From contig JAFNVE010000008.1 in NCBI GenBank assembly GCA_017379955.1, forward strand, positions 1 through 10,962: a stretch of DNA of 10,962 bases, in the 5' to 3' direction. This stretch comes from Tidjanibacter sp. (lineage in GTDB: Bacteria; Bacteroidota; Bacteroidia; Bacteroidales; Rikenellaceae). This document shows, in pieces, positions 27 to 9,335 of the stretch (positions are counted from its first letter, which is position 1; every line of letters begins with the position of its first letter). The position numbers and the translations under genes are program-made. The notes under the pieces were generated by a model. It was not told where the DNA came from, ran no database searches, and saw only the letters and a program-made list of their open reading frames with translations.

Positions 27-70
27 ACAACCGAGAGATATTCGATATATCTCTCGGTTGTTTGTTTTTG
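27..70 (+). terminator. Intrinsic terminator of a plus-strand gene left of the window
   Basis: A 15-bp perfect stem (27-41 with 47-61) with a 5-nt TCGAT loop is followed by a T-rich tail (61-69). It would end transcription of a plus-strand gene whose coding part lies outside the window. The upper stem and loop (ATAT-TCGAT-ATAT) are the same as in the terminator at 8895-8931, although the lower stems differ. Confidence 0.85.
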
Positions 71-115
71 TGAATTATGTGAATTATGGGAGTAATGAGA
101 ATTATGGGAGAACTA
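71..115. repeat. Short degenerate 9-nt tandem repeat
   Basis: Five consecutive 9-nt units read TGAATTATG, TGAATTATG, GGAGTAATG, AGAATTATG and GGAGAACTA. They match the consensus of the longer array at 8942-9085 (GGA followed by AT-rich bases). Both arrays follow a terminator with the same loop. No coding function is apparent. Confidence 0.7.
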
Positions 116-128
116 ACTATTTATACTC

Positions 129-301
129 TTTGAGTAATAATTGGGTTATTCGGGTTTAGGGGATACCCTCGTAGAGGGTACGATGGAAAATAGATATAGG
201 GAAGCCAAGTTTACTTGAACTTCCCTATATCTATTTTTTATCGTAATAGCCACTGAGGCTATCTCTAAACCCGCAAACTAAATAGTACAAAAGTTTTTTG
301 G
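129..301 (+). repeat. Structured repeat, copy 1: four-way-junction fold (candidate ncRNA or folded mobile element)
   Basis: The core at 151-273 folds into four stems. P1 is 9 bp (151-159 with 265-273). P2 is 7 bp with a 3-nt loop (164-170 with 174-180). P3 is 24 bp with two G-U pairs (181-204 with 220-243) and is capped by a 5-bp CAAGT/ACTTG mini-stem (206-217). P4 is 6 bp (246-251 with 257-262). Copy 2 at 6861-7031 has the same stem order, lengths and linkers. Its P3 and P4 sequences differ but still pair. The flanks 144-150 and 273-301 are nearly identical between copies. It is not a tRNA: P3 is far too long and there is no T-loop. Presence of the repeat is certain; its identity as RNA is inferred. 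Confidence 0.75.
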
Positions 302-315
302 TGCCGCTTTTTTAC

Positions 316-339
316 AAAAAAGGGGCGAAACCGCTTTTT
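316..339 (-). terminator. Probable intrinsic terminator of the HerA-like gene
   Basis: Read on the minus strand, AAAAAGCGG (339-331) and CCCCTTTTTT (325-316) form a stem with one C-C mismatch and a TTTCG loop, running directly into six T residues. It lies about 30 nt after the stop of the minus-strand ATPase gene. The CCGCTTTTT motif occurs twice here (304-313 and 331-339) and again at 7033-7041. Confidence 0.6.
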
Positions 340-370
340 ACAAAAAAGGCTCGAAAATCTTGCTGATAAA

Positions 371-1981
371 CTATTTCAGCAGGTTTTTCATTGTTTTGTT
401 CACTATTTGGCGGGTGGCGGTTGTGGTGGCTGTTTGTGCTGCTTTGGCGAGCATTGATTTGCCTGTTCCTTTCTTCGTGCCTCCCTTCTTTGCGCCGCCG
501 CTTGTTATGGACTTGGCCACCGATGTTCCGAGGCTGCGCACGAAGCTTGTTGCTGCTGCGCCTATCAGTGTGCCGAGCAGTCCGCGCCCTATGCCACCAC
601 TCTTCTGACACTTCGCTGCTTCGCGCTCCTCTTGTGCTATGCGCTCTGCCTCCTCCTCGGCTGCTGCGGCCTCTGCTGCCTCACGCTCCGCCTCTGCGCT
701 CTGCTCTGTGAGCACCTCGTAGGCACTCACTCGGTCCACCGCCTTGTCGTATGCGCGTATCGCGGCGGGTGCTGCGGCCATCAGCGCACGACGCTCCTCG
801 TCACTTATCGCACCTATCTGACTCAGAGGGAAGAGTATCTTGGCACGCTCCACCATGGCGGGTGCACCCTTCTCGTCGAGGAATGATACGAGTGCCTCAC
901 CTGTGCCGAGCTCCATTATTGCCTCCTCGGTGGAGAAGGCGGGGTTGGCACGGAAGGTCTGCGCCGCTGAGCGCACCGCCTTTTGGTCCTTGGGCGTGAA
1001 GGCGCGCAGGGCGTGCTGTATGCGATTGCCGAGCTGACCGAGGATATCCTCGGGGATGTCTGTCGGCGACTGGGTGATGAAGTAGACACCAACACCCTTG
1101 GAGCGTATCAGTCGCACCACCTGCTCAATCTTATCTATCAGGGCTTTGGATGTGCCGTCGAAGAGCATGTGTGCCTCGTCGAAGAAGAATACCAACTTGG
1201 GCAACTCGGCATCACCCACCTCGGGAAGATTCTCGTATAACTCGGAGAGCAACCAGAGCAGAAATGTGGAGTAGAGCTTGGGGTTGAGCATCAGCTTGTC
1301 GGCTGCCAGAACGTTCATCACGCCACGACCACCCTCAGTCGCTATGAGGTCGAGGATGTTAAAGGCGGGCTCACCAAAGAATTTGTCGCCACCCTCACTC
1401 TCGATAGCCATTAACGCACGCTGGATGGCACCTACCGAGGCGGCAGATATATTGCCATACTCGGTGGTGTATTGCTTGGCATTTTTAGCCACATAGTCGA
1501 GCATCAGACGCAGGTCTTTGAGGTCGATGAGGAGCAACGAGTTGTCGTCGGCAATGCGGAACACGATATTGAGTATTCCACTCTGAGTCTCATTGAGTTG
1601 CATTAGACGCGAGAGGAGTTGTGGACCCATCTCACTCACGGTGGTGCGCATCGCATGACCACGCTCGCCGTAAACATCGAAGACCCTCACGGGTGAGCCG
1701 GCAAACTCGGGGTCGGTGATGCCGAACTCAGCACAACGCTTCTCGATAAAACCACTCATCTTGCCACTCTGACTGATGCCCGAGAGGTCGCCCTTCATGT
1801 CGGCCATAAAACAGGGCACGCCCGCCTGCGAGAAGGTCTCGGCAAGCACTTGGAGAGTAACGGTCTTACCGGTACCGGTCGCACCAGCAATCAGTCCGTG
1901 ACGGTTAGCCATCGACCCCTCAATCGATATGGGGCCTTGTGGCCCATGAGCCACATATAATCTCTTGTCTGCTGTATACAT
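371..1981 (-). CDS. HerA-like ATPase, DUF853 / YjgR family
   Basis: The 536-residue protein belongs to the DUF853 branch of HerA/FtsK-type P-loop ATPases (E. coli YjgR is the known relative). The Walker A motif GATGTGKT is at residues 33-40, followed by the family-typical TLQVLAETFSQAGVPCFMAD. Walker B, LVFFFDEAH, is at 263-271, and an FITQSP sensor-like motif at 301-306. Residues 427-456 are a Glu/Ala-rich coiled coil, and the tail from 461 is Gly/Ala/Lys-rich, as in relatives. No signal peptide is seen, so it should be cytoplasmic. Its cellular role is not established; DNA translocation is inferred from family only. The ATG at 1981 fits the family N-terminus and lies about 28 nt after a predicted start site. 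It ends with TAG. It appears monocistronic, with its own promoter at 2016-2023. Confidence 0.93.
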   Translation of the reverse strand: MYTADKRLYVAHGPQGPISIEGSMANRHGLIAGATGTGKTVTLQVLAETFSQAGVPCFMADMKGDLSGISQSGKMSGFIEKRCAEFGITDPEFAGSPVRVFDVYGERGHAMRTTVSEMGPQLLSRLMQLNETQSGILNIVFRIADDNSLLLIDLKDLRLMLDYVAKNAKQYTTEYGNISAASVGAIQRALMAIESEGGDKFFGEPAFNILDLIATEGGRGVMNVLAADKLMLNPKLYSTFLLWLLSELYENLPEVGDAELPKLVFFFDEAHMLFDGTSKALIDKIEQVVRLIRSKGVGVYFITQSPTDIPEDILGQLGNRIQHALRAFTPKDQKAVRSAAQTFRANPAFSTEEAIMELGTGEALVSFLDEKGAPAMVERAKILFPLSQIGAISDEERRALMAAAPAAIRAYDKAVDRVSAYEVLTEQSAEAEREAAEAAAAEEEAERIAQEEREAAKCQKSGGIGRGLLGTLIGAAATSFVRSLGTSVAKSITSGGAKKGGTKKGTGKSMLAKAAQTATTTATRQIVNKTMKNLLK

Positions 1982-2015
1982 TTTTATACTGTTTTTAGTC
2001 GTTGCTTATTTTTAG

Positions 2016-2023
2016 CAAATATA
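2016..2023 (-). promoter_or_regulatory. -7 promoter element of the HerA-like gene
   Basis: Read on the minus strand the bases are TATATTTG, an exact match to the Bacteroidota -7 consensus TAnnTTTG. The -33 TTTG is only weakly represented (T-rich bases about 19-22 nt upstream). Transcription would begin near 2009, giving a leader of roughly 28 nt. Confidence 0.65.
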
Positions 2024-2049
2024 ACGAAAGTTTGGGAATAAATAAATAG

Positions 2050-2086
2050 TTATTAGGTAGATTTGGGAGCCAAATCTACCTAATAA
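2050..2086. terminator. Strong 17-bp perfect hairpin between herA and lpxA
   Basis: Bases 2050-2066 and 2070-2086 are perfectly complementary around a GAG loop. It abuts the terminator hairpin at 2086-2124. On the minus strand it is followed by an AT-rich but not T-only stretch. It may be a second, back-up terminator for lpxC-lpxA transcripts, just upstream of the herA promoter. A protein-binding site is an alternative. Confidence 0.5.
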
Positions 2087-2124
2087 AAAGACTGAGAGTG
2101 GTATCGAACCACTCTCAGTCTTTT
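2086..2124 (-). terminator. Intrinsic terminator of the lpxC-lpxA unit
   Basis: A 17-bp perfect stem (2086-2102 with 2108-2124) has a 5-nt loop. Its outer bases are A/T runs, so it can work in both directions. On the minus strand the stem ends in TCTTTTTATTA, a good terminator tail for transcripts coming from lpxA. Four T residues on the plus strand also give weaker activity that way. Confidence 0.8.
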
Positions 2125-2129
2125 ATCTA

Positions 2130-2288
2130 TTTTGAATTTTGAATCTTGAATTTTGAATTCACGAAGTCATATGGCTTAGGAAATTTTGGGCTTCGCGATG
2201 GGAGGCAAAGCGGAGTTTACTTAAAGTAAATGAGCATTTGACTCACAAGAGAAGTGCAAAATTTACAAGCCAGATGGCTTCGTGAGCA
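2130..2288. repeat. 159-nt repeat with 26-bp imperfect stem, copy 1 (3' of lpxA)
   Basis: This stretch matches 9169-9327 over its full 159 nt with no length change. It has three parts. The first is a 30-nt tract of GAATTTTGAAT-type repeats (2130-2159). The second is a hairpin element (2160-2284) whose arms, CACGAAG at the start and CTTCGTG at the end, pair over about 26 positions (2160-2188 with 2257-2284) around a 68-nt interior. The third is the shared AGCA. The 5' arms of the two copies are identical. The stop codon of lpxA is 36 nt away, so the repeat lies in the 3' untranslated part of the lpxA transcript, before the terminator. No open frame is present. Confidence 0.85.
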
Positions 2289-2323
2289 CCCCCAACGCCA
2301 AATTCACCAATTATACGGCTTTT

Positions 2324-3121
2324 TTACTCGTCGTTCGAAGCGTTCGGATTAAAAGGCTTAATAATTCCGCGCTTGGAGGAACGGATAAACTCAACCACCA
2401 AGTCGCGCTCACGGCTCTGGGGGAACTGCTCCATCACCAGGTCGCAAGCCTTACCATAGAGGCGGCCCTCCTGGAAGATGATACGGAACATATCCTGCAC
2501 CGCGCCAATCTGCTCGGGGGTGAAGCCACGGCGACGCAGGCCGAGGAAGTTAGCACCCACAAAGGTTGCGGGATAGCGTGCCACCTTAACATAGGGAGGC
2601 ACATCCTTGGTCAGCAGAGTACCACCACCAATCATTGCGTGCTCACCGATGCGCACAAACTGGTGAACCGCTGCGTGGCCACCGATAATGGCCCAATCGC
2701 CAACCTCTACCTCGCCAGCCAGCGAAACGTTATTCACAATCACACAGTTGCTACCCACCTCGCAGTCGTGAGCAACGTGCGCATAAGCCATAATGAGGTT
2801 GTTGTTACCAACCACGGTCTTGCCCTTTGCGGCAGTACCACGGTTGATAGTTGCACTCTCGCGTACTGTATTGTAGTCGCCCATCTCGACGGTGGTGTAC
2901 TCGCCCTTGAACTTCAAGTCCTGAGGAACACCAGCGATTACGGCAGAGGTGTGAATCTTACAACCTTTGCCCATACGAGCACCATCCAACACCACTGCAC
3001 CCGGGCCAATCCAACAATCATCACCGATAATCACATCGCCCGCAATGTATGCAAAAGGCTCTACGGTTACATTCTCACCCAACTTTGCATCGGGGTGCAC
3101 ATAAGCCAGATTACTAATCAT
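2324..3121 (-). CDS. lpxA: UDP-N-acetylglucosamine acyltransferase LpxA
   Basis: LpxA transfers a 3-hydroxyacyl chain from acyl carrier protein to the 3-OH of UDP-GlcNAc, the first step of lipid A synthesis in the cytoplasm. The 265 residues match the usual family length (about 255-265). Residues 1 to about 190 show hexapeptide repeats of the left-handed beta helix. The catalytic histidine is H118 in AHVAHDC, equivalent to E. coli H125. GGHAAVHQF (147-155) and DVPPYV (173-178) are family signatures. The C-terminal helical domain begins near LRRRGFTPEQI (195-205). The ATG at 3121 gives the expected N-terminus. The gene follows lpxC with a 92-nt gap in which I see no clear promoter, so the two are probably cotranscribed. 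Confidence 0.97.
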   Translation of the reverse strand: MISNLAYVHPDAKLGENVTVEPFAYIAGDVIIGDDCWIGPGAVVLDGARMGKGCKIHTSAVIAGVPQDLKFKGEYTTVEMGDYNTVRESATINRGTAAKGKTVVGNNNLIMAYAHVAHDCEVGSNCVIVNNVSLAGEVEVGDWAIIGGHAAVHQFVRIGEHAMIGGGTLLTKDVPPYVKVARYPATFVGANFLGLRRRGFTPEQIGAVQDMFRIIFQEGRLYGKACDLVMEQFPQSRERDLVVEFIRSSKRGIIKPFNPNASNDE

Positions 3122-5054: not shown

Positions 5055-6557
5055 ATGATACTAACAACAGAAAATATACTCCTCATTGGAGCACTATTGC
5101 TCTTTGTCGGCATCCTTGCCAGCAAGATTAGCAACCGCTTCGGAACTCCTATGCTGTTGCTCTTCCTTGCTGTGGGTATGCTCTTCGGAACGGATGGCCT
5201 CGGCATTGAGTTTAACTCACCTCGTGCAGCGCAGTTTATCGGTACTATTTCGCTCTGTATCATCCTCTTCTCGGGTGGTATGGATACCAAATTCACCGAA
5301 ATCAGACCTGTGCTTGGCAAGGGTATCACCCTCGCCACATTGGGCGTTGTGCTTACCACACTGCTGACAGGAACATTTATCTATTTTGTAGCGTCGCTTT
5401 TCCGCATCGAACTAACCTTTATGGAGGCTCTGTTGCCCGCCGCCATTGTATCGTCAACCGACTCTGCATCTGTCTTTTCCATATTGCGTGCAATGCGTCA
5501 GGGACTGATGTAGAACCTGCGACCGCTGCTGGAGTTGGAGTGTGGTTGTAACGACCCTATGGCGTATGTTCTGACCACCTTCCTGATTGCCATGCTCAGT
5601 GGCGATGGTATGGGCGTTGGCGAGTCAATCGGCTGGTTTGTTGCGCAGATGGGTATTGGCGCGCTGGCGGGCTACCTGCTCGGTATTGGCACCGTGTGGT
5701 GTATGGAGCATATCAACCTGAATAATAAATCGTTATACTCGGTATTACTCCTCTCGTTCAGCTTCTTCATCTTCTCATTTACCGACCTGCTTGGGGGTAA
5801 CGGTTATTTGGCGGTATATATTGGCGGTCTGGTTGTCGGCAACAAACGTATACCACACAAACGCCACCTGATGACCTTCTTCGACGGTGTGGCGTGGTTG
5901 ATGCAGATTGTGATGTTTATTGTGCTCGGCCTGCTGGTCAACCCACACGAGTTGTGGAGCGTGGCACTCTTTGGTGTTGCAATGTCACTCTTCATCACTA
6001 TCGTCGGTCGCCCTGTCTCGGTATGGCTTAGCTTACTGCCTTTTAAGGGGTTGAGTAGCAAGGCAAGAACATATATCAGTTGGGTAGGACTGCGCGGCGC
6101 GGTGCCTATCATCTTCGCCACATACCCGATGGTGGCAGGCTTGGAACACGCCGATATGATTTTCAACTCTATCTTCTGCGTGGTGATTATCTCGCTTATC
6201 GTGCAGGGCTCGACAGTGACCAAGATGGCCGAACTGCTCCACCTATCTGAAGAGGAGGAGGTACGCGGCTTCGACTTCGACCTGCCCGACGATGTAAAGG
6301 CGGCACTCGTGGAGCGAAAACTGACAGCCGAAAACCTTACCAACGGCAATACACTCAAAGATTTGCATCTGCCCTCCGACACTCTGGTTATGATGATAAG
6401 ACGTGGCGAGGAGTATATCGTGCCTAAGGGCAACACCGAACTTCGACCGGAGGATATCCTGCTCTTCATCACCCCCGAGAAACAGGCAGAGACCAAGTAC
6501 GACCGCCGCACCCTGCTCCGCCGCCTGCGTAAAATGAAAAGAGCTAAAAGAAAATAG
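5055..6557 (+). pseudogene. NhaP2/CvrA-type K+(Na+)/H+ antiporter with one in-frame TAG
   Basis: The reading frame spans 500 codons, the full length of cation/proton antiporters of the CPA1 NhaP2 type, and is interrupted only by TAG at 5511-5513 (codon 153). Before it are several membrane helices and SSTDSASVFSILRAMRQG. After it, in the same frame, come NLRPLLELECGCNDPMAY (the NDP ion-binding motif), further membrane helices, and a TrkA-C/RCK-C regulatory domain (about residues 405-480, DTLVMMIRRGEEYIVPKG). The family usually has ESGSNDP; here both serines are cysteines. The 347 codons after the stop are undamaged, so the lesion is recent, a sequencing error, or tolerated. If read as two parts, the second could start at TTG 5535 or ATG 5559, but neither half would carry the full transport core. 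Confidence 0.8.
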
Positions 6558-6798: not shown

Positions 6799-6860
6799 TC
6801 TTTAGATTGGGAAAGAGCAAAAGAGAAAGGAGGAAATTTAGGGAAAACCGATTAGACTTT

Positions 6861-7031
6861 TTTGTAATAGTTAGGTTATTCGGGGTTAGGGGATACCCTC
6901 GTAGAGGGTACAAATGAAATATAGGTAGGATTAGTCAAGCTTGCTTGAACTAAATCTTACCTATATTTTGTTTGTAATAACTGCAAAGTTATCGCTAAAT
7001 CCGCAAACTAAATAGTCCAAAAGTTTTTGGT
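6861..7031 (+). repeat. Structured repeat, copy 2: four-way-junction fold (candidate ncRNA or folded mobile element)
   Basis: The core (6881-7003) is 123 nt, exactly as long as copy 1. P1 pairs 6881-6889 with 6995-7003 (one G-U, one mismatch). P2 (6894-6900 with 6904-6910) is identical to copy 1. P3 pairs 6911-6934 with 6950-6974 over 24 bp, with three G-U pairs and one bulged A, and is capped by CAAGC/GCTTG (6936-6947). P4 pairs ATAACT with AGTTAT (6977-6982 with 6987-6992) around a GCAA tetraloop. Linkers GGGA, zero, TA and 2 nt are as in copy 1. The flanks GGTTATT and GCAAACTAAATAGT are conserved. Confidence 0.75.
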
Positions 7032-7032
7032 T

Positions 7033-7052
7033 CCGCTTTTTACAAAAAGCGG
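7033..7052. terminator. CCGCTTTTT/AAAAAGCGG hairpin 3' of the channel gene
   Basis: A 9-bp perfect stem with a 2-nt AC centre lies 34 nt after the stop codon of the minus-strand channel gene. It corresponds to the CCGCTTTTT motifs at 304-349 next to copy 1 of the structured repeat. No T run follows it on either strand, so it is only a weak terminator candidate. It could instead be part of the repeat module. Confidence 0.4.
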
Positions 7053-7086
7053 AGAAAAAAAGGACAAAAACATTTTCACAAAAAAT

Positions 7087-8283
7087 TCAGCCTTCGCCTT
7101 CGGCGCCTTCGATGCTCAGTTGGAATATTTTGAGTCCGAAGCGGGGGATGATTGCCACTATATGGTCTATTATGTCTGCTTGTGCGAGTTCGAAGGCTCG
7201 CCACTCTGTTTGTGCGAGGAAGAGGTATATCTGCAAGGGCAGGCCATACTGTGTTGGTGCGAGTTCTCGTACCATTGAGAGCATCCCTTTGTGTCGTAGT
7301 GGCATTTTTTCTATGTAGTCGCTCAGGTATGCGCGGAAGAGGGTGAGGTTTGTCACCTCGCTGTGGTCTGCGGTGAGCGATGTTATATGTTGTGCCACGG
7401 CGGGTATGTCGGATAGTGAGGCGAGCTCCTCGGGTGTGCAGAAACGGATGCTACGCACGTCGAGCAGCAGCGAGCGCATCACCCTGCGACCTCCACTCTC
7501 CTTCATCGCCTGCTGGTTTATCAGATGGTTGTCGGTGAGAACATAGGGTGGCACGGTGCTTAGTGAGTTGTCGAAGTTACGGATTTTCACGGTGTTTAGC
7601 GTCACCTCTTCCACTACGCCCTCTATACCGTGCGAGGGCACCTCCACCCAGTCGCCAACCTTTATCATATGCTCCTGCGAGAGCATCACGCCCGACACAA
7701 GGCCGAGTATCGAGTTCTTGAATATGAGGCTGACTACGGCTGCCGAGGCTCCAAGACCTGTGAGTAGCTTGGTGGGCGAGCGGTTGAAGAAGATGGCGAT
7801 AATGAGGATTATCCCTACTACGAAGATTATTATCTGCAACACCTGCATCATCCCTTTGAGAGGCTTGTTGCGATAGTCGCGCCGACGGTAGAAGATTTCG
7901 AAGAGCACCTTCACGGCATTGTTCGCCAGCCCCACCATCAGGAGCACAAAGCTGACGTTGAGCAACTTGACAAATGCCTTTGCCAAACTGCCCTCCTCTA
8001 CGAATAGCAGTGGCAATGCGGCATAGAGTATCATCAGCGCAACGATTGCCGCCACCTTCGACACATTACCCTCGCTGAGCAGGATTGCCGCCTCTGCCGA
8101 GTGGAAACGCCCCCGCAGATGGCGCGCTATCATACGGAGCAGCCAACGGAGGAGCAACCATAGCCCTGCCACCACCAGGAGCACAACAGCCACCCCTGCC
8201 ACCTCACGCCACACCCCTTGCAGGTGTTCCAGACCGAGCCACCGAAAGAGGGTGTCTAAAAGATGTGTTATATAGTCGTTCAT
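7087..8283 (-). CDS. MscS-family mechanosensitive channel, YbdG type
   Basis: The 398-residue inner-membrane protein probably forms an osmotic release channel. Hydrophobic segments lie at about 29-50, 76-95, 104-128 and 147-166. The conserved pore helix at about 172-200 (LLTGLGASAAVVSLIFKNSI) is the MscS hallmark. The cytoplasmic beta domain follows, with KVGDWVEVPSHGIEGVVEEV (208-227) and VPPYVLTDN (244-252). The KPLKGMMQVLQ segment before the last helix and the total length resemble E. coli YbdG (about 415 residues). The C-terminus ends in a short acidic Glu/Gly tail. The ATG at 8283 is divergent from the SLOG gene with 73 nt between starts. I see no exact TAnnTTTG for this gene; the closest is CTATTTG at 8311-8317 on the minus strand. 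The stop is TGA. Confidence 0.95.
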   Translation of the reverse strand: MNDYITHLLDTLFRWLGLEHLQGVWREVAGVAVVLLVVAGLWLLLRWLLRMIARHLRGRFHSAEAAILLSEGNVSKVAAIVALMILYAALPLLFVEEGSLAKAFVKLLNVSFVLLMVGLANNAVKVLFEIFYRRRDYRNKPLKGMMQVLQIIIFVVGIILIIAIFFNRSPTKLLTGLGASAAVVSLIFKNSILGLVSGVMLSQEHMIKVGDWVEVPSHGIEGVVEEVTLNTVKIRNFDNSLSTVPPYVLTDNHLINQQAMKESGGRRVMRSLLLDVRSIRFCTPEELASLSDIPAVAQHITSLTADHSEVTNLTLFRAYLSDYIEKMPLRHKGMLSMVRELAPTQYGLPLQIYLFLAQTEWRAFELAQADIIDHIVAIIPRFGLKIFQLSIEGAEGEG

Positions 8284-8863: not shown

Positions 8864-8894
8864 AATGCAAAATGTATGATTCAAAATTAATTAT

Positions 8895-8935
8895 AACCGC
8901 CGAGGGATATTCGATATATTCCTCGGCGGTTGTTT
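8895..8935 (+). terminator. Intrinsic terminator of the SLOG gene
   Basis: An 11-bp GC-rich stem (8895-8905 with 8921-8931) continues through GATAT/ATATT (one G-U) to a TCGAT loop, followed by a short T-rich tail. The apical part equals that of the terminator at 27-61, while the lower stem has different but still complementary bases. Confidence 0.8.
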
Positions 8936-8941
8936 ATCAAG

Positions 8942-9121
8942 GGAGGTTAGGGAGATTAGGGAATTATGGGAATTATAGGAATTATAGGAGTAATAGGAGC
9001 AATAGGAGCAATAGGAGCAATAGGAGCAATAGGAAATGAGTGAAATTAAGGAGTGTAGGGAATTTAGGGATAGTAGGGACAATCCTTAAACTCCTTAAAC
9101 TCCTTAAACTCCTTAAACTCC
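8942..9121. repeat. Array of twenty 9-nt units, the last four inverted
   Basis: From 8942 to 9085 the sequence runs in 16 consecutive 9-nt units in unbroken phase. Most begin with GGA and end with TAG or ATA; GGAGCAATA occurs four times in a row (8996-9031). From 9086 to 9121 come four perfect TTAAACTCC units. Their reverse complement, GGAGTTTAA, fits the same consensus, so the array ends in inverted orientation. It is non-coding and lies between two facing terminators in a convergent gap. Such arrays can vary in length by slippage. Confidence 0.85.
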
Positions 9122-9168: not shown

Positions 9169-9327
9169 TTTTGAATTTTGAATCTTGAATTTTGAATTCA
9201 CGAAGTCATATGGCTTAGGAAATTTTGGGCTTCGTGATGAAAGGCGAGCCGAAGTTTACTTGGCGTAAATGAGGCGAAGCCTTTCGAAGGAAGTGCAAAA
9301 TTTACAAGCTAGATGATTTCGTGAGCA
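9169..9327. repeat. 159-nt repeat with 26-bp imperfect stem, copy 2 (3' of dnaK)
   Basis: This copy matches 2130-2288. The AT-rich tract (9169-9198) and the 5' arm (9199-9227) are identical to copy 1. The 3' arm (9296-9323) differs at three positions, and all three keep pairing on the plus strand through G-U or U-A pairs. The 68-nt interior is more diverged but has the same length. Here it can form an extra stem from CTTCG/CGAAG plus AAAGGC/GCCTTT around TTTAC/GTAAA. The repeat ends 8 nt before the dnaK stop codon. Confidence 0.85.
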
Positions 9328-9335
9328 TAGTAATA

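Follow-up and report, generated by a model that had tools for sequence, protein, structure and literature searches.

A 123-nt intergenic element that folds into a four-way junction occurs twice in a stretch of Tidjanibacter DNA, and this raises the question of what is conserved at these sites: an RNA, a device in the mRNA of a neighboring gene, or the folded DNA itself. The stretch, referred to here as the window, spans 10,962 nt and corresponds to contig C95; the draft genome to which it belongs totals 1.49 Mb (202 contigs, 77% complete).

Two copies of a four-way junction and their flanks

The initial annotation described copy 1 as four arms, with a long P3 closed by a cap, and proposed a second copy of equal length (123 nt) and arm order. 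Both were recovered in this study (Table 1). On the plus strand copy 1 folds as RNA at -69.2 kcal/mol (z -11.74; none of 200 shuffles was equally good) with the proposed arms of 9, 7, 24 plus cap, and 6 bp, and copy 2 at 6881-7003 folds at -51.9 kcal/mol (z -8.06). With DNA folding parameters the z-scores were -11.3 and -7.3, and the minus strand folds too (z -11.2 and -8.3). The paired changes in the cap and in P4 that had been reported between the two copies are present in the sequence. The statement that P3 is fully paired in both copies is a slight overstatement, as P3 of copy 2 contains bulges; in the same copy, P1 includes a single mismatch and a single wobble pair.

Table 1. Features of the two copies and their flanks (positions in the window)
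Feature	Position	Strand	Size or detail	Basis
Copy 1, four-way junction	151..273	+		fold z -11.74; covariation across 104 rows
Copy 1, P1	151-159/265-273	+	9 bp	
Copy 1, P2	164-170/174-180	+	7 bp, GTA loop	
Copy 1, P3	181-204/220-243	+	24 bp	
Copy 1, P3 cap	206-210/213-217	+		
Copy 1, P4	246-251/257-262	+	6 bp	
Copy 2	6881..7003	+	layout of copy 1 shifted by 6730	fold z -8.06; alignment to copy 1
Copy 1, left flank	111..150	+	ACTCTTTGAGT hairpin, partial outer pairing with right flank	kept in own-genus copies
Copy 2, left flank	6841..6880	+	conserved	alignment of copies
Repeats of 9 nt (GGGAATTAT type) to the left of copy 1	69..110	+		repeat search; consensus of 76 own-genus left flanks
Copy 1, right tail	274..352	+	CAAACTAAATAGTACAAAAGTTTTTTGG followed by A/T hairpins with GC clamps (about 301-326 and 331-352)	tails common to other copies
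Copy 2, right tail	7004..7054	+	hairpin CCGCTTTTT..AAAAAGCGG at 7033-7052	
Gene right of copy 1	371..1981	-	536 aa; stop codon faces copy 1	ORF list, context
Gene right of copy 2	7087..8283	-	398 aa; stop codon faces copy 2	ORF list, context

By sight, we take the product of the gene right of copy 1 to be a P-loop ATPase of the HerA/DUF853-like kind, and that of the gene right of copy 2 to be an MscS-like channel. Among the matches listed for the gene right of copy 1, the nearest came from MAGs of Rikenellaceae and Alistipes recovered from herbivore guts.

The window also holds a second dispersed structured repeat (2155-2290 and 9194-9330; z -8.4 and -9.9), which is a long hairpin (TCACGAAG..CTTCGTGA) whose middle part varies. 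It has 43 matches in the same genome, some of them partial, and in both window copies no more than about 40 nt separate the end of the repeat from the stop codon of a gene on the minus strand. Nine-nucleotide repeats of the GGGAATTAT or GGGAATTTA kind, found at 69-110 and 8940-9115, are usual left of the element in its own genus and also occur without it, and an inverted CCTTAAACT array lies at 9083-9116. A repeated unit at 1-70 and 8881-8935, made of ATTCAAAAT runs and the terminator-like hairpin CCGAGAGATATTCGATATATCTCTCGG, is also seen left of some other copies. Separately, the plus-strand transporter gene at 5055-6557 is split by an in-frame TAG into two open frames, 5055-5513 and 5535-6557, that share one reading frame; this could mean a broken gene, a sequence error or read-through.

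A multicopy family with a clade-like distribution

The initial view of two paralogous elements gave way to that of a repeat family with many copies, associated with the 3' ends of genes. A BLAST search of the genome's own draft with copy 1 returned 37 matches, some partial and two on the opposite strand, and 25 full copies from this genome were aligned. The same search gave at least 48 places in genome G011 (40 of 91 candidates scored) and at least 41 in G006 (40 of 45 scored). The lists for these three genomes take in partial matches as well as opposite-strand matches to one place, the latter arising because the element is nearly palindromic; in the copy lists, opposite-strand matches at one place were removed by hand. 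As had been suggested in the initial annotation, a covariance model was used to search for relatives; built from the 25 own-genome copies and run on genomes of the family, it found many further copies. With at most 11 candidates scored per genome, it was positive in 34 of 268 family genomes and in 3 of 22 genera; 14 of the 34 genomes had nine matches or more. Some species carry dozens of copies per genome: five genomes of a second genus, g22, each had 31-57 model matches, some of them on the opposite strand.

Within its own genus the element was found in only 3 of 23 genomes (again with at most 11 candidates scored per genome). The RNase Z sequences of these carriers group together, at 88-100% identity to the query versus 62-70% in the 18 other genomes with a good match, and the spread is therefore clade-like. 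Outside the family there was no convincing match among the sampled genomes of the order. A lone long hairpin with the same cap (TTCAAGCTCGCTTGAAA) lies behind a tRNA in a genome of another family (G474, L411 1540-1640), and it is either a remote relative or a chance resemblance. A phage or plasmid origin was considered and rejected, as blastn of copy 1 found no match among 50,697 phage and 72,556 plasmid records. In viral contigs, the g1 pattern had no matches and a g22 15-mer occurred in 55, none with a model match, which is about the number expected by chance on a rough estimate.

Conservation of the fold

Pairing was assessed in an alignment covering two genera (A4; 104 rows, of which 102 are distinct and 3 are opposite-strand matches, built from 100 of the loci). 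Standard pairs made up 95.1% of its 5033 pair cells, compared with 78.9% after shuffling and at most 43.0% when slid. Two-sided changes were seen at 44 of 51 pairs, and the covariation score was 0.431 versus 0.151 shuffled and at most 0.063 slid; none of 500 shuffles came as high. Because A4 was fitted to the structure, all of these pairing and covariation figures lean towards that structure. Additionally, P3 at orthologous sites changes largely by replacement of the whole block. Its paired changes therefore say less about selection than they seem to, and the base-by-base covariation is carried by P1, P2, P4 and the cap. The proposal that the element is conserved for its folding, as RNA or as single-stranded DNA, is supported by these data.

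The loops are conserved as well. P2 closes with C-GNA-G in 24 of 25 own-genome copies, 52 of 56 copies in G006 and G011, and 96 of 117 g22 copies; in the remainder the loop differs or an exact 5-bp stem is lacking. The P4 loop is most often GCAA, and the P3 cap reads CAAG-YTYR-CTTG with an A after it; across stretches totaling 716 kb this cap motif occurred 40 times inside elements and once outside, in a copy cut by the contig end. Copies in g22 have an extra hairpin behind P1, with a triloop stem in 85 of 117 and C-GNA-G in at least 65 of 117, compared with 2% of random windows. A counterpart of this GNA hairpin was seen in 0 of 25 and 1 of 56 copies of the element's own genus.

Complementary arms might also be a mutational by-product, with one arm of a quasi-palindrome copied from the other and no selection on the fold. 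The near-perfect, rapidly replaced arms of P3 would suit such a process. However, it leaves four arms in conserved order, the GNA loop, the cap, the bulge and the strand asymmetry described below unexplained, and as an account of the whole element it is barely credible. For P1, P2 and P4 it is disfavored, and as the origin of new P3 types it is possible.

The initial annotation held that further copies whose stems lost their pairing would speak against a conserved fold. One partial copy in the same genome, L028, is of this kind: the 5' arm of its P3 is of one type and the 3' arm of another, so pairing is not kept in every copy, against the 95.1% of A4 overall. The mixed arms appear as if an exchange had stopped in the cap, and a chimera of the draft assembly is possible. 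L028 (about 1305-1480, contig C66) also carries an insert in P1 that ends in GCAGCTGAGGTGGATTTGTTTGC and GCAAATAAATCCAACTCAGTTGC with TAA on both sides, and this insert looks like another small transposable element.

Replacement of P3 as a block

Orthologous copies were compared in 60 pairs (right flank at least 80% identical; identical pairs removed). Median identity was 80.5% in P1/P2, 77.5% in P4 plus tail, and 62.5% in the P3 arms. P3 was kept at 85% or more in 10 of the 60, and in 10 of the 60 it fell below 60% with P1/P2 above 80%. The clearest swaps are L254:1402 of G167 compared with L244:1356 of G168, and L018 of G000 compared with L050 of G011; in both, the sequence change begins and stops near the base of P3. 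P3 thus often acts as a block that is swapped for the type of another copy while P1, P2 and P4 stay.

The degree to which P3 is independent of its surroundings differs between genomes. Once identical copies were removed, identity outside P3 in G000 was 87/81% for pairs with the same P3 and 86/80% for pairs with different P3, and in G224 pairs with the same P3 behave nearly as in G000. Copies with the same P3 are more alike elsewhere in G011 and most g22 genomes (for example 86/88% versus 67/79% in G275), and P3 is therefore partly linked to its surroundings there. G000 is the only genome with clear decoupling, and G224 comes close to it. The simple P3-cap rule used for the ortholog and P3-type comparisons, and for the P3 counts given below, is shifted in a few copies.

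Which strand folds, and as what

On the strand of the copies that is plus in the window, G-T outnumbers A-C in P1 (22:2), P2 (38:3, with one weak outer pair giving 16 of the 38 G-T cells), P4 (24:6) and P3 (118:44), although these counts come from a covariance-model alignment that may favor G-U. A symmetric alignment of the P3 arms that treats G-T and A-C alike, and in which the cap rule failed for 11 copies, gave 96:10 in the own genus and only 58:41 in g22. A double-stranded cruciform would give no G-T bias. The excess of G-T over A-C and the C-GNA-G loops on the plus strand therefore suggest that this strand, complementary to the coding strand of the right gene, is probably the folded one.

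Promoters of the Bacteroidetes type have the consensus TAnnTTTG. This motif is scarce in the left flanks, where just 3 of 76 copies in the own genus and 13 of 113 in the second set carry it, and a promoter there is unsupported. GNA and GNNA loops are described in passages of PMC4686876 as extraordinarily stable DNA mini-hairpins, and Weinberg and colleagues, in the part of PMC2864571 that deals with STAXI, used loop type to choose between RNA and single-stranded DNA. Taken together, the strand bias, the GNA loop type and the rarity of the promoter motif lean towards single-stranded DNA. We infer that the selected unit is the plus strand folded as a single strand, with single-stranded DNA likelier than RNA, though the GNRA-like P4 loops and the GT pairs suit RNA equally.

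A multicopy structured RNA would be an alternative. It could be a protein-binding RNA or a small RNA of the plus strand that is antisense to the right gene at its 3' end, with the P3 types serving as separate copy identities. It would account for the four-way junction, the GNRA-like P4 loops, the bulged A beside the conserved cap, the tolerance of G-U on the plus strand and the 95.1% of cells that are paired. It fits less well with the rarity of the promoter motif in the left flank, and terminator-like hairpins noted by eye left of several copies could stop plus-strand read-through. The C-GNA-G triloop is a stable loop of the DNA type, and dozens of copies with a replaceable P3 would be odd for one RNA. 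We therefore regard a structured RNA as unlikely, while giving it a real chance.

Position relative to genes

Gene context was scored for 198 copies, with the right flank too short to classify in 2 and the left flank in 40; the weaker, more diverged loci (L118-L129 and L350-L354, 12 weaker loci) were excluded from the context and pair counts. The right gene is convergent, with its stop codon facing the element, in 167 of 196 copies (20/24, 46/55 and 101/117, at median distances to the stop codon of 66, 51 and 72 nt). On the left, the 3' end of the gene points towards the element in 111 and the 5' end in 47 of 158 classified copies; the flanking genes in both counts are the longest open frames, some of which may be wrong. 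The left-side ratio of 3' to 5' ends is 32:25 in the own genus and 79:22 in g22, so the left-right contrast is clear in the former and smaller in the latter. The orientation is non-random, because if insertions between convergent genes were simply tolerated, the two sides should look the same. Back-to-back pairs of copies, one per gene end, occur at L115, L344, L345 and L346.

Within its own genus the element stays with its right gene. A counterpart beside a copy in G006 was found for 11 of 24 right genes of G000 and for 3 of 17 left genes, and in G011 for 7 of 24 and 1 of 17. Retention of right over left genes is weaker in g22, with 9/19 right and 4/19 left genes of G168, and 13/14 right and 8/13 left genes of G167, retained beside an element in G275. 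Some copies in G006, G011, G167, G168 and G209 were counted twice in these comparisons, and in the one between genera that follows, due to overlap of small loci with 20-kb stretches; the quoted G000-side figures are unaffected. Conservation of host genes between the genera was considered and rejected: 6 of 109 right genes were common to both, which is not beyond the left control (9 of 81).

The recurring right genes are, by sight, presumably those for an ABC transporter, a RecN-like protein, RNase Z, butyrate kinase, TsaD, a LacZ-like protein and QueA. A common function was sought and none was seen in the recurring clusters inspected, which hold ordinary, mixed housekeeping genes. L244 and L254 have, at about 1350-3050, a queA-like gene flanked by two elements, each with its right end turned towards the gene, and the tpiA-like side of this locus is common to six g22 species.

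These positions raise the possibility that the element is a 3'-UTR device of the right gene, acting in the minus-strand mRNA as a terminator or as a barrier to 3'-5' exonucleases. The distance of 50-70 nt to the stop codon, the own-genus retention with the right gene, the back-to-back pairs with one copy per gene end and the folding of the minus strand are all consistent with such a role. However, the GT/AC asymmetry and the loop types indicate the opposite strand, and the right genes, judged by sight, are mixed housekeeping genes that between genera are not common beyond the left-gene control. We consider a 3'-UTR role rather improbable.

Mobility and associated enzymes

At one syntenic site the element is present in G168 and absent from G167. 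A MITE would have terminal inverted repeats and a target-site duplication. P1 is an inverted repeat, but at this sole empty site the whole intergenic stretch differs, with neither a clean insertion nor a visible target-site duplication. Y1_Tnp (PF01797) was found in none of 14 element-bearing genomes, which are incomplete drafts, and in 5 of 14 control genomes. No integron integrase exceeded the TIGR02249 cut-off in the 14 carriers or in the 14 controls, so that this search had no positive control, and all 14 carriers have weaker tyrosine-recombinase matches below the cut-off.

When stretches L235-L254 of G167 and G168 were compared, 6 of 14 edges of synteny blocks had an element no more than 700 nt away, where 8.5% would be expected (p 6e-4). 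The 14 edges are not independent, since one element is flanked by two of them and the scan took in both genomes, and the stretches had been selected because they contain elements. The edges come from draft stretches and assembly error is therefore possible; they may reflect such error or plain homologous recombination.

The edges bear on the question of whether the element is a recombination site like the attC sites of integrons. An attC site lies behind a gene, and its R boxes have the consensus RYYYAAC/GTTRRRY. At the stem foot of the element no R' or R'' boxes conserved across genera were seen by eye, with no AAC/GTT in the expected orientation, and most copies read TTCGG..CCGCA there. The bottom strand of attC folds and its structure is conserved more than its sequence (passages of PMC2727003); the strand of the element that probably folds is likewise the one complementary to the gene in front, its structure is conserved more than its sequence, and it sits just behind the stop codon. 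The 6 of 14 edges near elements, and the right gene and element staying together in the own genus while left neighbors change, would also agree with a site of this type. Against it are the missing R boxes, the dispersed rather than arrayed copies, the integrase search and the alternative origins of the edges, and a true attC-like site seems very improbable.

Discussion

The explanation that we prefer, and to which we give about an even chance, is that the element represents a new clade-specific family of small interspersed repeats that is selected as a folded single strand and evolves by hairpin exchange. Copies would once have spread through a putative enzyme acting on the fold, insertions behind genes would have been tolerated, and copies would now be mostly inherited vertically. 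The long P3 hairpin may be a hot spot of breakage or recombination. Repair from another dispersed copy that shares P1, P2 and P4 would then replace P3 as one unit, and such repair could keep the few P3 types of a genome alike. However, a cis function would explain the retention at orthologous genes and the strict spacing just as well as parasitism.

A more speculative version, to which we give only a small chance, is that selection at these chromosomal sites favors folding of single-stranded DNA, on whichever strand is complementary to the neighboring gene, and that a P3 hairpin cassette is exchanged among dozens of loci. Such sites would be single-strand recombination sites, attC-like yet unrelated to integrons, and would mark the 3' ends of genes and help to reshuffle gene order.

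As a family of interspersed repeats, the element combines a fold that is inherited more than its sequence with a strand signal, an address at gene 3' ends and a swappable inner hairpin. It offers a test case for the spread of small interspersed repeats that have no RAYT, and for possible selection on folded chromosomal single-stranded DNA outside integrons, IS200/IS605 and REPs.

Comparison with known families

The initial annotation did not recognize a known family, and none emerged here. The covariance models of Rfam 15, including Bacteroidales-1 and Bacteroides-1, gave no match in the window at the gathering score; matches on 100-420 were sub-threshold only, and 18 related loci gave only neighboring tRNA and sub-threshold miRNA models. 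The element resembles Bacteroidales-1 and other Rfam RNAs in being a structured intergenic element of the Bacteroidales, although it matches them only below threshold. Bacteroides-2 has no Rfam number in the table of PMC2864571. Our literature search found no description of the element, and overlap is possible with the 3161 candidate structured RNAs from human microbiomes covered in passages of PMC8040213. The family is apparently undescribed.

ERIC sequences are of about the same length, are dispersed between genes as imperfect palindromes, and have no known mobilizer. The element is set apart from them by description, in that it belongs to another clade, forms a four-way junction and has a fixed orientation to gene 3' ends. 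Passages of PMC3733652 describe REP, BIME and REPIN elements as short palindromic repeats with many intergenic copies, mostly downstream of coding regions, with GT pairs in REP stems and REPs often close together in opposite orientation. The element shares with them the many palindromic intergenic copies behind genes, the GT pairs and the close inverted pairs, but it differs from REP/RAYT systems in its length of about 123 nt, its four arms, the replacement of whole P3 hairpins and the absence of a Y1 transposase in the 14 genomes. Judged by eye in alignment A2 and by loop counts, the REP tag GTAG/CGTC unpaired at the hairpin foot is absent; GTAG spans the P2 loop, with GAAG, GGAG or GCAG in other copies.

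The BOX, RUP and SPRITE elements of pneumococcus are, in passages of PMC3049150, small dispersed structured repeats over-represented between convergent genes, and the inner module of BOX is variable. The element is alike in being small, dispersed and structured with a variable inner part, but BOX varies the number of tandem boxB units whereas the element swaps one hairpin for another, with new arms and the same cap. With attC it shares the probable folded strand and structure above sequence (attC passages of PMC2727003), as well as the site behind a gene, and it differs in having no R boxes, no IntI over the cut-off and dispersed copies without a cassette array. In habit the element is most like REP, ERIC and BOX; it departs from REP in tag and transposase, and it is distinguished from all three by its junction, its strand signal, its address at gene 3' ends and the replacement of P3.
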